64,000 nucleotides of DNA, taken from Syntrophorhabdaceae bacterium (GTDB taxonomy: Bacteria > Desulfobacterota > Syntrophorhabdia > Syntrophorhabdales > Syntrophorhabdaceae). The stretch is taken from the NCBI GenBank assembly GCA_036504895.1, contig DASXUJ010000054.1, positions 1 through 64,000 of the forward strand, given 5' to 3'. The notes under the pieces were generated by a model. The model was not told where the DNA came from. It saw nothing but the letters and a program-made list of their open reading frames with translations, and made no database searches. The translations under genes were made by a program, and so were the position numbers. This document shows, piece after piece, positions 40,332 to 51,057 of this stretch; within the stretch, counting starts at the first letter, position 1; each line of letters opens with the position of its first letter.

Positions 40332-41546
40332 CTACCTGGAAAAGCGGCTCTTCTTTCCCAGGCTCATCTGCTTCGGTTCGAGATTATTATCGAGGCCGTA
40401 GCGGGTCGCGAGTGCTTCCCATTCCGGCCTCTCCGCGATTTCGGTGAGGGCGAGGTTTACGGGCTTCCTTAAAGGGCTCCCCTTGGGAAAGGCAAAAGCG
40501 AAACGGTGGGGCTTGAATTCCGTGGGATGGATGCGCAGGGGCCTCGCAAACTCGTTGCCTGCGTAATAATGGAGGGTGAGCTCGCCCATAAAGAGGCCCT
40601 CTATCTTTTTCGCTCTCATGGCGGCCATGAGGGCGCTCTCGTCATTGAAGACCCGGTATTTTCCATTTATATCTTTGAGCAGAGTATGCTGCAGGCTGTC
40701 CCTCAAGACGCCGAGGCGCAGGCTCCGAAGTTTTTTCGCATCATAGATCTCCATGGACTGGCTTTGAATAAGAAGCGTCGAGGCAAGGGAGGCGGTAAAG
40801 GCGCTGAACGCCAATGCGCCGAGGAAGATCCAGATAAGACCTATAATGCGGGCCGGCAGCGTTTTGAGCGTCACATCATAGCACGCTCCCGCGGCTAAGG
40901 CCGAGCTCACCCAGTAGGTGCCCGTGCCGATCCCTTTGGCAGGGCGGCCTCCAAAATCTTCGGGATTCCGCTTCCTTTCGATGAGCCAGAGGATAAGCCC
41001 CACCCCCAAAAGCACCACCAGAAAAAGGGCGAGTATCTTTATCACACCCCAGGAAAAAAAAGTTTTCCCGGCGCCCAGTAAGGCATGAGAATCCTTGTCT
41101 GCCGGGACGGCCACTGCCAGGCGCTCCGTGCCGACCGTCGTGGAAAAATCGAAGAGCCGGTATCGGGCCGCGGTTTCATAAAGGGCTGCGATGGAGAGGT
41201 CGATCGTCCCGTTCCTGAGGCTGTCCTGAATTGTCTTGAAGGTCATCTCCCTGAATTCATAATCGATGCCAAGGTCGACGGCCATGTAGCGCCACAGGTC
41301 TACATTGAATCCCGTCCACTGGCCCCTCTCGTTCTTGATCGCAAAGGGGGGATCGTCTATCACTCCCACAATCAGCTTCTTATGGGGGAGGCTCGATGAA
41401 GCCTGCCCCTGCAGGGGAAGAGGCGTCAGGAGCGCCGCCAGCAGCACCACAAAGATAAGGAGAACACACATCTCCTTCATCATGAAACTGCCGATCTGCC
41501 CGATCTGGCCGGGGCCGCCTCCATGGCTTTTCAATTTCCCGACCAT
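40332..41546 (-). CDS. Ionotropic-glutamate-receptor-like channel, paralogue 1
   Basis: The 404-residue protein has the prokaryotic iGluR layout: a signal or anchor (about 27-46), SBP_bac_3 lobe S1 (about 55-160), TM1 (166-189), a pore loop with TM2 (about 205-260), then lobe S2 (270-390). The ligand carboxylate Arg of amino-acid binding proteins is kept (YETAARYRLFDFS, R128), and the gate helix has FSAFTASLAS, similar to the iGluR SYTANLAAF motif. In the potassium-filter position TVGYGD is replaced by GACYD. It overlaps the upstream paralogue by 16 bases. An ATG at residue 22 is an alternative start. Confidence 0.75.
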   Translation of the reverse strand: MVGKLKSHGGGPGQIGQIGSFMMKEMCVLLIFVVLLAALLTPLPLQGQASSSLPHKKLIVGVIDDPPFAIKNERGQWTGFNVDLWRYMAVDLGIDYEFREMTFKTIQDSLRNGTIDLSIAALYETAARYRLFDFSTTVGTERLAVAVPADKDSHALLGAGKTFFSWGVIKILALFLVVLLGVGLILWLIERKRNPEDFGGRPAKGIGTGTYWVSSALAAGACYDVTLKTLPARIIGLIWIFLGALAFSAFTASLASTLLIQSQSMEIYDAKKLRSLRLGVLRDSLQHTLLKDINGKYRVFNDESALMAAMRAKKIEGLFMGELTLHYYAGNEFARPLRIHPTEFKPHRFAFAFPKGSPLRKPVNLALTEIAERPEWEALATRYGLDNNLEPKQMSLGKKSRFSR

Positions 41547-42679
41547 GACGACCCTTTCGCCTCTTTTCTACCCAGCGGCTCGAGATCACGGGTGAGACCG
41601 TAGCGATGGGCGAGGCTGTCCCATTCAGGGCCTTCCATGAATTCCATGAGAGAAATATTGAGCCCTTCCCGTAGCGGGCTTCCCTGGGGAAGGGCAAAGG
41701 CAAGCCTCATCTTTTTGAGCGTAGTCAGGTGAAGGGAGAGCTTATTCCTATATTTGCTTTCCTCATAAGCCAGAAGCCGCTCGTTGCCGAAAAAGCCTTC
41801 TATTCTCCTTGCCAGGAGCGCCTCGATTACCTGGTCCGTCCTGTCGAAAAGGGTGAATTTCCCCCCCAGCTTCCCGAGGAGCGACGCCTGGGTGGTCCCG
41901 GTCACCGCGCCGAGGTGCATACCCCTCATGGCGTTCATATCATAGGTGTAGCCGAGGAGCTGCTGCCGCCCGATAAGGGAAGAGGCGAGCGACGCGGTAA
42001 GGGCGCTGAAGGCGATGGCCCCCGCCAATATCCATAGGAGCCCAATAATCCTGCCGGAAGTCGATTTGAGACTCACCCCGGTGCAAAACCCGGAGACGAG
42101 GGTGGAGCCGACCCAGTATAGCCCTGCCACGAGGCCTTTCACGGGATGGCCGCCGAAATGGTCCGGATTAGACTTCCTTTCGATGATCCAAAAGGTGAAC
42201 CCGGCAAGGAAGATCACGGCCAGGAAGAGAAGCCCCATCTCGATTATATTCCAGGAGAGAAGCACCTTGAGGGCGGCAAGGAAGGGATGGGGATCCCTGG
42301 TCGCAAGGACCGCGATAGCCGGCTCGATGGAGCCTATGGCGACGGAGAAATCCAAAAACCTATGGCGGTCCACCGTCTCGTAGAGAGGGGAAACAGAGAT
42401 ATCGGCGTTCCCCGATCGGAGCGTCCCCTCGATCTCCTTGAATTCCAATTCCCTGAATTCATAGGCCGAGCCCATCTTCAGGGCCATGTGACGCCACAGC
42501 TCGACGCAGAACCCCGTCCATTGACCTGTTTTGTCTTTGAAAGCCATTGGGGGATCGTTGACTATCGCCACCGTAAGCGGCCGCGTAACCGAAGGTGCAA
42601 CATTGCCCGATTGGGCAAAAACAAAGCCGCACTGCAGTACTATACATAGGGCAAGGATAAGACGGATGGGCCTATGCAA
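41531..42679 (-). CDS. Ionotropic-glutamate-receptor-like channel, paralogue 2
   Basis: The 382-residue protein is a paralogue of the next gene, with a signal peptide (1-22), S1 lobe (about 33-130), TM1 (about 145-168), pore loop and gate helix (about 188-238) and S2 lobe. YETVDRHRFLDFS keeps the ligand Arg (R105), and FSALTASLAS marks the gate helix. The potassium-filter position reads GFCTG instead of TVGYGD, again with Cys at the Tyr position. The gene is upstream in the operon, so the two may form a hetero-oligomeric receptor in the inner membrane, which is inference. Confidence 0.75.
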   Translation of the reverse strand: MHRPIRLILALCIVLQCGFVFAQSGNVAPSVTRPLTVAIVNDPPMAFKDKTGQWTGFCVELWRHMALKMGSAYEFRELEFKEIEGTLRSGNADISVSPLYETVDRHRFLDFSVAIGSIEPAIAVLATRDPHPFLAALKVLLSWNIIEMGLLFLAVIFLAGFTFWIIERKSNPDHFGGHPVKGLVAGLYWVGSTLVSGFCTGVSLKSTSGRIIGLLWILAGAIAFSALTASLASSLIGRQQLLGYTYDMNAMRGMHLGAVTGTTQASLLGKLGGKFTLFDRTDQVIEALLARRIEGFFGNERLLAYEESKYRNKLSLHLTTLKKMRLAFALPQGSPLREGLNISLMEFMEGPEWDSLAHRYGLTRDLEPLGRKEAKGSSWSGN

Positions 42680-46874: not shown

Positions 46875-48099
46875 ATGGCCACCGATGCCGCAGCCATATT
46901 TCAGCGCTGGAGATTCTCAGACATGGCTCACTACGGGATAAAAAAAATCGCAAGCCCTAATCCTCATAGCAACAGCGGGACAAGACTTATCCTCTATCTG
47001 TGTGCCCACCTTCTTACGGCACTTTTCATTCCGTTCGCAGCTTCAACTGCGGTGGCGGAGGTTCGCCTCGACAAGATCAAGCTCCCTCCCGGATTCGCCA
47101 TAGACACTTACGCCACGAATGTCGAAGGCGCCCGTTCCCTTGCGCTCGGACCCGAAGGGATCGTGTTTGCGGGAAGTCGTTCGTCCGGTAAAGTCTATGC
47201 CCTCCTGGACCGCAACAAAGATCATAAGGCCGAGGAAATAGTCATTATTGCCAAAGGTCTGAATTCACCTAACGGCGTAGCTTATTTCGGAGGGTCTCTG
47301 TATGTTGCCGAGATATCGAGGATACTCCGCTTCGATGATATCATAAAACAGTTGTCCCACCTGCCTAAACCGGTCGTAGTAAATGACACGTTTCCAAAGG
47401 AGACCCATCATGGCTGGAAATTCATCGGATTCGGTCCGGACGGCAAACTCTATGTGCCGGTAGGGGCCCCTTGTAACATATGTATGAGCCATGACCCTCG
47501 GTATGCCTCGATCATGCGAATGAACCCCGACGGAACCGACCTCGAGGTATTTGCCCAGGGGGTGCGCAATACGGTGGGCTTCGACTGGCACCCAAGGACG
47601 AAAGAGTTTTGGTTTACCGACAACGGGCGTGATTGGCTAGGGAATAATCAGCCTCCCGATGAGCTCAACTGCGCACCCCAAAAGGGAATGCACTTCGGCT
47701 TCCCCTTCTGCCATGGAAGCAATATTCCCGATCCGGAATATGGGGGCAAGAGGTCCTGCACGGAATTCGTTCCCCCGCGGAAGAACCTGGGACCCCATGT
47801 CGCAGCGCTCGGGATGAGGTTTTACACAGGCGCCATGTTCCCGCCGCAATCGCAACAATATATTCATTGCCGAACACGGCTCCTGGAACAGGATACCGCC
47901 CATCGGATACAGGATTACCCGCGCTATGGAAAAAGACGGAGCCATAACCGGTTATGAAGTCTTCGTAGAAGGCTGGCTGCAGGGCTTATCCTCATGGGGT
48001 CGTCCTGTCGACGTCCTGGTGATGCCCGATGGCGCCCTCCTCGTCTCCGACGACAAAGCCGACGCCGTCTATCGCATCAGCTACCGCTCTTCCGAATAA
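46875..48099 (+). pseudogene. Frameshifted sorbosone-dehydrogenase-like PQQ propeller protein
   Basis: The first frame (46875-47957) has a signal or anchor (about 38-62) and a six-bladed propeller of the soluble glucose/sorbosone dehydrogenase type (LPPGFAIDTYATNVEGARSL, GFDWHPRTKEFWFTDNGRDW). After MFPPQ near 47845 it goes out of frame. The correct continuation, RNNIFIAEHGSWNRIPPI ... YRISYRSSE, is read in another frame to a stop at 48099. A single inserted base or two-base deletion explains the change. The gene was complete before the shift, or this is a sequencing error. Confidence 0.75.
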
Positions 48100-48132: not shown

Positions 48133-51057
48133 TCAGTCCACAGGGACCGAGGGTTCCTCACTATCTCCCGTCTCCTCCCCGGCATCGGCTGCCCCGGCGC
48201 CCGCTCCTCCATTTCCGGCGAGATTCACGATTACGGTAGGCATATCAAGATCATTGGAGGGCACAATGAGATCTGTGGTCACGGGGAGCGTGGTAACAGG
48301 TATGAAGGTCACCGTCACCTGGCACGCGTGATTGAGAGGGAGGTTTTTCCCCGGGCATGTATTTCTCGTAACGACAAAGGAAGGATCGCCACTCAAAGAG
48401 ATCTCACCCACGGCCAGGGGTTTTTTTCCTGTGCTTTTTATTATGAAGGACGCAGCTTTCCGTCTTTTGACCTTTACCGTGCCGTAGTTTTTAACTGACG
48501 GAGTGACAATTATATGGGATTCGCTCTTAAAGACGGCGGTTACATAGGTGTACTCGTTCATCGTCACCGAACAGGTGGCTTTTGTCCCCGAACAGCCCCC
48601 TCCCGACCATCCGGCAAAAAGGGAGCTGCCGTCAGGCCGGGCAACGAGGGTCACCTTTTTTCCATCATTGAAACTGTAGGCACAGATAGAGCCGCAGTTG
48701 ATCCCCCGCGGATTGCTGATAACAGTGCCCGAGCCGGTGCCTGTCTTCTCCACCGACAGGGTGGCCGTGACCGAGAAGGTAACTACTACTGTATGGGCGG
48801 CGGTGACGTTGCTGATCGTGTAGGGGTTGGTTACTGTCACGGCTTGACCGTTATCGGTAATCCCCGCGATGTTATAGCCTGATTCGGGGGTTATGGCAAT
48901 CGAGGCGTTCGCTCCCCGGTTTACGCTCTGCGTTGCGGGAGCCACCGATCCGTGGCCGCCGGAGACGGAGGCATTGATCGGGTACGTGTCGGCGGAGAAG
49001 GTAACTACTACTGTATGGGCGGCGGTGACGTTGCTGATCGTGTAGGGGTTGGTTACTGTCACGGCTACGCCGTTGTCGGTAATCCCCGCGATATTGTAGC
49101 CCGATTCGGGGGTAATGGTAATCGAGGCGTTTGCTCCCCGGTTTATGGTCTGCGTCGCGGGAACCACCGATCCGTGGCCGCCGGAGACGGAGGCATTGAT
49201 CGGGTACGTGTCGGTGGAGAAGGTAACTACTACTGTATGGGCGGCGGTGACGTTGCTGATCGTGTAGGGGTTGGCCACTATCACGGCTACGCCGTTATCG
49301 GTAATCCCCACGATCTTATAGCCTGATTCGGGGGTTATGGCAATCGAGGCGTTTGCTCCCCGGTTTATAGTCTGCGTCGCGGGGGCCACCGATCCATGGC
49401 CGCCCGAGACGGAGGCGTTGATCGGGTACGTGTCGGTGGAGAAGGTAACTACTACTGTGTGGGCGGCGGTGACGTTGCTGATCGTGTAGGGGTTGGCCAC
49501 TGTCACGGCTTGACCGTTGTCGGTAATCCCCGCGATGTTATAGCCTGATTCGGGGGTTATGGCAATCGAGGCGTTTACTCCCCGGTTTATAGTCTGCGTC
49601 GCGGGGGCCACCGATCCATGGCCGCCCGAGACGGAGGCGTTGATCGGGTACGTGTCGATCGCGTAGGTGACCACTATGTTATGGTCCTCGGTAACGTTGC
49701 CGATCACGTAGGGATTGGCGACCATCGCGGCTTTTCCTGGAGCTGTCTGTGCGGGAGCAGCGACATGCCCGTTTTTTGTCCTGAAGCTTGAGACATTCGT
49801 GACTGACTGACCGTTATCAATAAGGCCGGCAATATGGTAGCCCGTGTCGGGGCTGAGAGTGATCGATGCGGAGGCCCCGTAAGAGACCGCCTGGGTGGCG
49901 GGACTTACACTGCCGTGACCTCCGGAAACCGAGGCCCCGACGGTATATATGGCGGCGGCGAAGCCTGCGGTTATGGCCGTATTAACCGTTGGGGTAACCG
50001 TGCAGGTCCCTGTTCCCGAACAGACGCCTCCGGTCCAGCCCGTGAAGGTGGAGCCCGTAGCGGCGGCAGCGGTGAGGGTGATCGATGCGCCCCGGGAAAA
50101 GGATCCGCTGCAGCTCGCGCCGCAGTTGATGCCTGTGGGGCTGCTTGTGACCGTGCCGGCGCCGGTGCCTGATTTGGTGACGGTGAGCGTCACGTTGTCA
50201 TTCACGATGGTGGCGATAAAGCCGTGGATCACAGGGTATTGGCCGCCATCGACGTCTTCTGAAATCACGGAATATCCCACGATCTTATCCCCGCTTATGC
50301 CGTATGCGTAGGTGAAGAAAGCGCCCGGGAAATCGAGGGTGGTAAAGGCGGCGCCGTCATAGAGAAAACCGTGGTAGATATTGTCGGCATCCGCGTATGT
50401 CCCCACGATCCTGGTCCCGCTTATGCCGTATGCAAACGTGTAGGCGGCTCCCGGAAAATCTAGGGTGGTAAAGGTGACGCCGTCATAGAGAAAACCATGG
50501 TAGACGTTATCGACATCCACATAGGTCCCCACGATCCTGGCCCCGCTTATGCCTTCGGCGGACGTATAGCTCGAACCAGGTACGTCGAGGGTGGTAAAGG
50601 CGGCGCCGTCATAGAGAAAACCATGGTAGGTATCGCTGTCCTCAGTCGAGGTCAGGTATGTCCCCACGATCTTATTTCCCTCTATGCCGTTAGGCGATGT
50701 CCAGCTGCCGCCGGGGAAATTGAGGGGGGTAAAGGCGGCGGCCTCGTAGATAAAACCCCCCAGGTAATCCTGGCCCTGGGTCGATCCCACGATCCTGTTC
50801 CCGCTTATACCGTTGGCCCAGGTGCCTTCCACGAATGTGTCCGGCCATTGGAAGGAGATAAAATTGGCGCCGTCATAAAAGAAGCCGAAAACTTCCATGG
50901 AATGGCTTCCCACGATCCTGTCCCCGTCTATCCCCCGGGGCATTGTGTCTATATGGTCAGGATAGTCAAAGACCCTGTAGGTGATGCCGGAATGAGAGAA
51001 ACCCGCAAAACCAATGATCACGCCAATCAAAAGAAGTGATGCAAAAATCCGTTTCAC
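48133..51057 (-). CDS. Large secreted repeat protein (HAF-like, SGGHGSV repeats, ASH-like end)
   Basis: The 974-residue product starts at GTG with a signal peptide (MKRIFASLLLIGVIIGFAG). Residues 25-290 hold five or six repeats of the type GISGARIVGTY...YHGFLYDGAAFTTLDFPG. Then comes a bacterial repeat domain (GTVTSSPTGINCGASC), tandem DTYPINASVSGGHGSV units of 74 residues, a second GTVISNPRGINCG domain, and near residues 850-955 an ASH-like domain (SVKNYGTVKVKRRKAASF). It is probably exported or displayed on the cell surface. No sorting motif is recognised. Confidence 0.75.
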   Translation of the reverse strand: MKRIFASLLLIGVIIGFAGFSHSGITYRVFDYPDHIDTMPRGIDGDRIVGSHSMEVFGFFYDGANFISFQWPDTFVEGTWANGISGNRIVGSTQGQDYLGGFIYEAAAFTPLNFPGGSWTSPNGIEGNKIVGTYLTSTEDSDTYHGFLYDGAAFTTLDVPGSSYTSAEGISGARIVGTYVDVDNVYHGFLYDGVTFTTLDFPGAAYTFAYGISGTRIVGTYADADNIYHGFLYDGAAFTTLDFPGAFFTYAYGISGDKIVGYSVISEDVDGGQYPVIHGFIATIVNDNVTLTVTKSGTGAGTVTSSPTGINCGASCSGSFSRGASITLTAAAATGSTFTGWTGGVCSGTGTCTVTPTVNTAITAGFAAAIYTVGASVSGGHGSVSPATQAVSYGASASITLSPDTGYHIAGLIDNGQSVTNVSSFRTKNGHVAAPAQTAPGKAAMVANPYVIGNVTEDHNIVVTYAIDTYPINASVSGGHGSVAPATQTINRGVNASIAITPESGYNIAGITDNGQAVTVANPYTISNVTAAHTVVVTFSTDTYPINASVSGGHGSVAPATQTINRGANASIAITPESGYKIVGITDNGVAVIVANPYTISNVTAAHTVVVTFSTDTYPINASVSGGHGSVVPATQTINRGANASITITPESGYNIAGITDNGVAVTVTNPYTISNVTAAHTVVVTFSADTYPINASVSGGHGSVAPATQSVNRGANASIAITPESGYNIAGITDNGQAVTVTNPYTISNVTAAHTVVVTFSVTATLSVEKTGTGSGTVISNPRGINCGSICAYSFNDGKKVTLVARPDGSSLFAGWSGGGCSGTKATCSVTMNEYTYVTAVFKSESHIIVTPSVKNYGTVKVKRRKAASFIIKSTGKKPLAVGEISLSGDPSFVVTRNTCPGKNLPLNHACQVTVTFIPVTTLPVTTDLIVPSNDLDMPTVIVNLAGNGGAGAGAADAGEETGDSEEPSVPVD
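48773..49660. repeat. Four 222-bp tandem repeats coding 74-residue units
   Basis: Starts of the marker GAGAAGGTAACTACTACTGT fall at 48773, 48995, 49217 and 49439, giving a constant period of 222 bases (74 codons). The units are nearly identical. A fifth, divergent unit follows at 49661. High identity suggests recent expansion or gene conversion. Confidence 0.9.

Follow-up and report, generated by a model that had tools for sequence, protein, structure and literature searches.

Among prokaryotic ionotropic glutamate receptors (iGluRs), the K+-selective Group 1, or GluR0 type, is recognised by a TVGYGD-type filter. An inverted pore orientation has been demonstrated for GluR0 (PMC13099474). Ger et al. 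2010 set apart as Group 2 the 10 of 22 putative channels that have no recognised filter (PMC2950845), so that prokaryotic iGluRs without the K+ signature have been a known kind since 2010. Outside the receptors, the filter has been replaced in NirBac, a K+-channel family whose members tetramerise and for which non-selective cation flux has been measured (PMC4607889). Animal glutamate receptors came to pass Na+ and Ca2+, and the bacterial ancestor from which they arose is presumed to have been K+-selective.

The stretch of DNA that we analysed (the window, 64,000 nucleotides from a Syntrophorhabdaceae bacterium) carries two tandem genes for iGluR-like subunits on its minus strand. P0002 is transcribed first and runs from 42679 to 41531 (382 aa, TTG start, signal peptide MHRPIRLILALCIVLQCGFVFA); P0001 follows and runs from its first ATG at 41546 to 40332 (404 aa). 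The products are 45% identical across 349 aa, a value low enough to rule out an assembly duplication as the source of the pair. It was originally predicted that the paralogous frames overlap, and both frames are indeed present, but the overlap of 16 nt exists only if P0001 starts at its first ATG. The alignment of P0001 homologues begins at MMKEM, corresponding to M22/M23 (ATG at 41483/41480), and a protein read from MMKEM has a good signal peptide at its N-terminus. M22/M23 is likely the true start, and the two genes may thus be separated by a gap of about 47 nt instead of overlapping. Scanning the locus for promoters and terminators brought up no signal clearly beyond chance; the two genes are probably co-expressed. 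Elsewhere in the window, a glucose/sorbosone dehydrogenase-like ORF (46875-47957, plus strand) seems out of frame or truncated at its C-terminal end, a possible frameshift, and a 974-aa protein with InlB B-repeat and HYDIN-like Ig domains (48133-51057, minus strand) is probably a large cell-surface protein.

By layout and homology, both products are members of the prokaryotic iGluR family. Pfam splits SBP_bac_3 over residues 58-384 of P0001 (E 3e-25) and 35-361 of P0002 (E 6e-18), with Lig_chan inside at 40.3 and 31.0 bits, respectively. Both domains exceed their curated cut-offs in both proteins, P0002 passing only just for Lig_chan (cut-off 30.8 bits). These are the only Lig_chan matches in the whole genome, and none of 14 control genomes has one. 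Whole-length profiles match plant GLR3.4, kainate receptors and AMPA receptors, and a profile of the pore segment only finds plant GLR3.4 best, then AMPA receptor pores. An AlphaFold model of the P0001 monomer, built with a 70-sequence alignment, is confident throughout lobes and pore (mean pLDDT 88.4) and places lobe 1, M1, pore helix, loop, M3 and lobe 2 in order. Alignments delimit lobe 1 (residues 57-150; 41097-41378, minus strand, as for all features below), the model gives M1 (residues 166-190; 40977-41051; pLDDT 90 or more) and the pore helix (residues 202-219; 40890-40943), and model and alignments together place the gate helix M3 (residues 230-263; 40758-40859, with SAFTASLAS) and, using a profile alignment, lobe 2 (residues 270-385; 40392-40739). 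Aligned to P0001, P0002 has its M1 at 42179-42253 and its M3, reading SALTASLAS, at 41960-42061. The gate motif FTASLAS, at first ascribed to both proteins, is therefore that of P0001, P0002 having LTASLAS, and M3 is 70% identical between the copies. The positively charged linker between M1 and the pore (RKRNPEDFGGRPAK) is consistent with a cytoplasmic linker and an inverted pore. In a Foldseek search of the PDB with the P0001 model, AMPA receptors came out best, with GluA4 at the top (E 4e-20 over about 380 aligned columns), and a kainate receptor was also listed; TM-scores were 0.4-0.5 with high rmsd, probably owing to differing lobe and membrane arrangements. The predicted prokaryotic iGluR layout, a binding domain split by a two-TM pore, is thus borne out by Pfam and the P0001 model, and the middle segment is a pore loop plus gate helix by Lig_chan, the pore-only profile and the same model.

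The alternative against which the original prediction had been set is that these are membrane-anchored substrate-binding proteins of the usual ABC-transporter kind, with no channel. In ncbifam, the highest-scoring matches are to amino-acid ABC binding proteins, albeit all far under cut-off. The binding domain is nevertheless interrupted, at the place expected for an iGluR, by two hydrophobic helices and a pore helix. The profile of the pore alone matches iGluR pores, and the adjoining genes (rubrerythrin-like, NUDIX, phosphoglucomutase and glycosyltransferase-9) include no permease or ATPase among those examined. Alignment of the pore segment already refutes this alternative, and Pfam, profile, structural and genomic-context results exclude it; we give it practically no credence.

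We found the K+ filter to be absent from both copies. In an ungapped alignment, TVGYGD of relatives is in register with SGVCFG of the closest family members, with SGFCTG of P0002 (residues 196-201; 42077-42094) and with AGACYD of P0001 (residues 219-224; 40875-40892). The missing TVGYGD, the Cys at the Tyr position and the motifs GACYD and GFCTG were thus predicted correctly. That the filter is peculiar to this pair was not upheld: the P0002 version fits a pattern, SGxCxG, common to single-copy orthologues across a clade, and P0001 is the outlier. S219, G220, C222 and G224 (P0001 numbering) are invariant in 16 of 16 clade members outside the window, which include close relatives, making the effective number smaller. 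Filter identity within the clade is 0.87, versus about 0.5 in the lobes, and pore helix and filter are among the top conserved blocks of the protein, the filter with block rank 4 of 323 and the pore helix as the clade's most conserved block. Conservation this strict is not what a decaying pore would show; this is an alternative filter. A second clade-invariant Cys, Cys243 in M3, is likewise present in 16 of 16 members outside the window and is Gly in both window copies (G243 of P0001, 40818-40820). Counting from a shared Arg, we take this position to be that of the KcsA hinge Gly99, presumably a gating hinge.

A K+-selective, GluR0-type channel despite the altered letters would fit the ungapped replacement and the position of the clade among TVGYGD-type bacterial iGluRs in the tree. 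However, the clade consensus keeps none of V, G, Y, G and D in register, and clade-versus-K identity in the filter is 0.02; we consider K+ selectivity very improbable. Judged from the filter residues, the cations that pass through the clade's channels, including the window pair, are probably other or mixed ones.

The clade has 100% support and a long stem in the tree, where it adjoins TVGYGD receptors. When pore-loop columns were removed, it was recovered again (100/100) with the window pair inside, P0001 and P0002 being sisters (100/99). Homologues occur in 10 of 39 genomes of the family, counting the window genome, and every other carrier has a single copy. A search for the same tandem pair thus found none in the rest of the family. 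An independent one exists in the order: a genome of another family, G044, has three homologues, of which two form a tandem whose frames overlap slightly. In the tree without pore-loop columns, these two form a separate sister pair (96/86), indicating two independent tandem duplications, and the window pair is a lineage-specific tandem duplication. The G044 pair lies at L055:1477-3985 and keeps SGxCxG in both copies. A scan of the GTDB genome set returned at least 13 clade records (the pattern used does not catch every member), in genomes that partly overlap those of the other search. Nearly all are labelled deltaproteobacterial, Syntrophus or Syntrophorhabdus, and one is Thermodesulfovibrionales; the clade is mostly one of Syntrophorhabdaceae-like bacteria. 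No further SGxCxG lineage turned up among genomes sampled from the same phylum, from the phyla to which L034 (Planctomycetota), L041 (Pseudomonadota) and L020 belong, or from the order of L029.

Outside the clade, the sampled genomes hold mostly TVGYGD receptors plus several unrelated non-K filters, and the latter rule out that loss of the K filter is a rare event. That the change went from a K filter to its replacement was read from midpoint rooting and from the commonness of TVGYGD outside the clade rather than from a true outgroup. Other bacterial iGluR lineages (L069, L070, L071, L119-L128 and others) have no K+ filter and each its own conserved replacement, for example ATSGK...RKN, VNGGFEERMP, TNASFTIFTP, TQAGAAQNAP and ITKGPFNYYEF, and loss looks recurrent in Pseudomonadota and elsewhere. 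Another iGluR tandem pair, in an alphaproteobacterial MAG (L040, 3794-6078), has the K-type filters QVGYGD and TVGYGD, its second copy lying inside a much longer open frame (754 aa).

At the ligand site of the window pair, the lobe-1 Arg predicted to bind the ligand carboxylate is kept in both copies (R128 in P0001), in agreement with the original prediction. The lobe-2 acid, D321, to which the amine of the ligand binds, is Asp in 15 of 16 clade members outside the window, Gly in P0001 (G321, 40584-40586) and Asn in P0002; the original prediction relied on the Arg and overlooked this loss. A profile alignment places it opposite the Asp of E. coli glutamine-binding protein, and we take it to be the position of Glu705 in GluA2. 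One copy of the G044 pair has also lost this Asp (Phe). Retention of the Arg with loss of the acid bears on the type of ligand and not on homology, the Arg-plus-acid site being a trait of glutamate-binding members and the layout definition of Ger et al. working without it. Since both copies have lost the acid, the window pair is unlikely to have kept the glutamate-type binding mode unaltered; amino-acid-like ligands may still be what the family senses.

These changes raise the possibility that the channel works in the clade at large but that conduction or ligand binding has been lost in the window pair, and most of all in P0001, the copies either drifting or serving as a non-conducting sensor or dominant subunit. 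P0001 retains only G220 and C222 of the clade's filter residues and departs at five pore-loop positions (I210, G214, T216, S219 and G224) that are invariant in the 16 other members; these departures and the loss of D321 from both copies fit relaxed constraint after duplication, and the branches are long (0.52 and 0.79). On the other hand, each copy has an intact, full-length frame in which codon-position GC resembles that of neighbouring genes, the P0001 model is confident, M3 has stayed similar between the copies, and the pore loop of P0002 keeps every clade-invariant residue except for I210L. We therefore regard decay or repurposing as unlikely, though a serious contender.

Departures from otherwise conserved columns are unevenly shared between the copies. 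P0001 alone departs at five such columns in the pore loop and P0002 alone at none, versus five and 11 elsewhere (Fisher p 0.012; 0.02-0.14 at other thresholds, in a test devised after the data were seen). That P0002 is the pore-keeping copy and P0001 the lobe-keeping one is only a lead.

Taken together, we favour, with a probability of about 0.6, tandem-duplicated prokaryotic iGluR subunits from a clade where SGxCxG took the place of the K+ filter on a single occasion, forming a ligand-gated, non-K-selective cation channel that is possibly heteromeric. The analyses above establish the receptor architecture, the clade membership, the filter replacement with its conservation and the separateness of the two duplications; for conduction, selectivity, gating, ligand change and heteromerisation, we infer the following. 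A periplasmic two-lobed binding domain would carry an inverted two-helix pore of the K+-channel type between its halves; closure of the clamshell on a ligand would open the gate by a pull on the M3 helix, in the manner of GluR0 and animal iGluRs, and cations would pass through the tetrameric pore without K+ selectivity. P0002 would contribute the clade filter and P0001 the divergent AGACYD and a better conserved lobe 1, neither with the lobe-2 Asp, potentially as heteromers whose ligand would be something else than a free alpha-amino acid. We hold a more specific proposal to be improbable: that, in an otherwise unchanged receptor, a conserved Gly-x-Cys filter convergent on or related to the AMPA-type QQGCD replaced the K+ filter and gave ligand-gated non-selective cation channels, and that the window pair is a subfunctionalised heteromer, with the pore kept by one subunit and the ligand lobe by its partner. 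This small bacterial clade, next to TVGYGD relatives, rebuilt its filter and has conserved it since, so the step can be tested by swapping filters among closely related bacterial receptors. The tandem pair is, in addition, a possible bacterial example of heteromeric channels of the glutamate-receptor-like kind.

The literature searched, which excluded most subscription papers, yielded no description of the conserved Cys filter, the clade or the tandem pairs and no electrophysiology or binding results for a clade member; several described systems come close. With GluR0 of Synechocystis and Group 1, the window proteins share the signal peptide, the S1-M1-P-M3-S2 order, the lack of an N-terminal domain and M4, a similar gate helix and a pore loop that aligns without gaps; they differ in having SGxCxG (P0002) or AGACYD (P0001) where those receptors have TVGYGD, and in the loss of the lobe-2 Asp from both copies. 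Group 2 (PMC2950845) has the missing K+ filter as its defining trait, and the window proteins, having the iGluR layout without the K+ signature, fit it as a descriptive group; the description of Group 2 that was consulted mentions neither the Cys filter nor its clade. Animal AMPA receptors (filter QQGCD) are the best PDB structural matches and the second-best pore-only matches after plant GLR3.4. The clade's Gly and Cys align with the G and C of QQGC, and the Asp of P0001 with the +4 Asp, in a filter alignment that takes two one-residue gaps; this resemblance may be convergence or chance, and unlike AMPA receptors the window proteins have no N-terminal domain or M4. NirBac is likewise a K+-channel-family protein in which the filter alone is replaced, but it has a Kir fold with a cytoplasmic domain, no ligand-binding clamshell and unrelated filter sequences (PMC4607889). 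That NirBac conducts with a replaced filter makes conduction by the window pair plausible.
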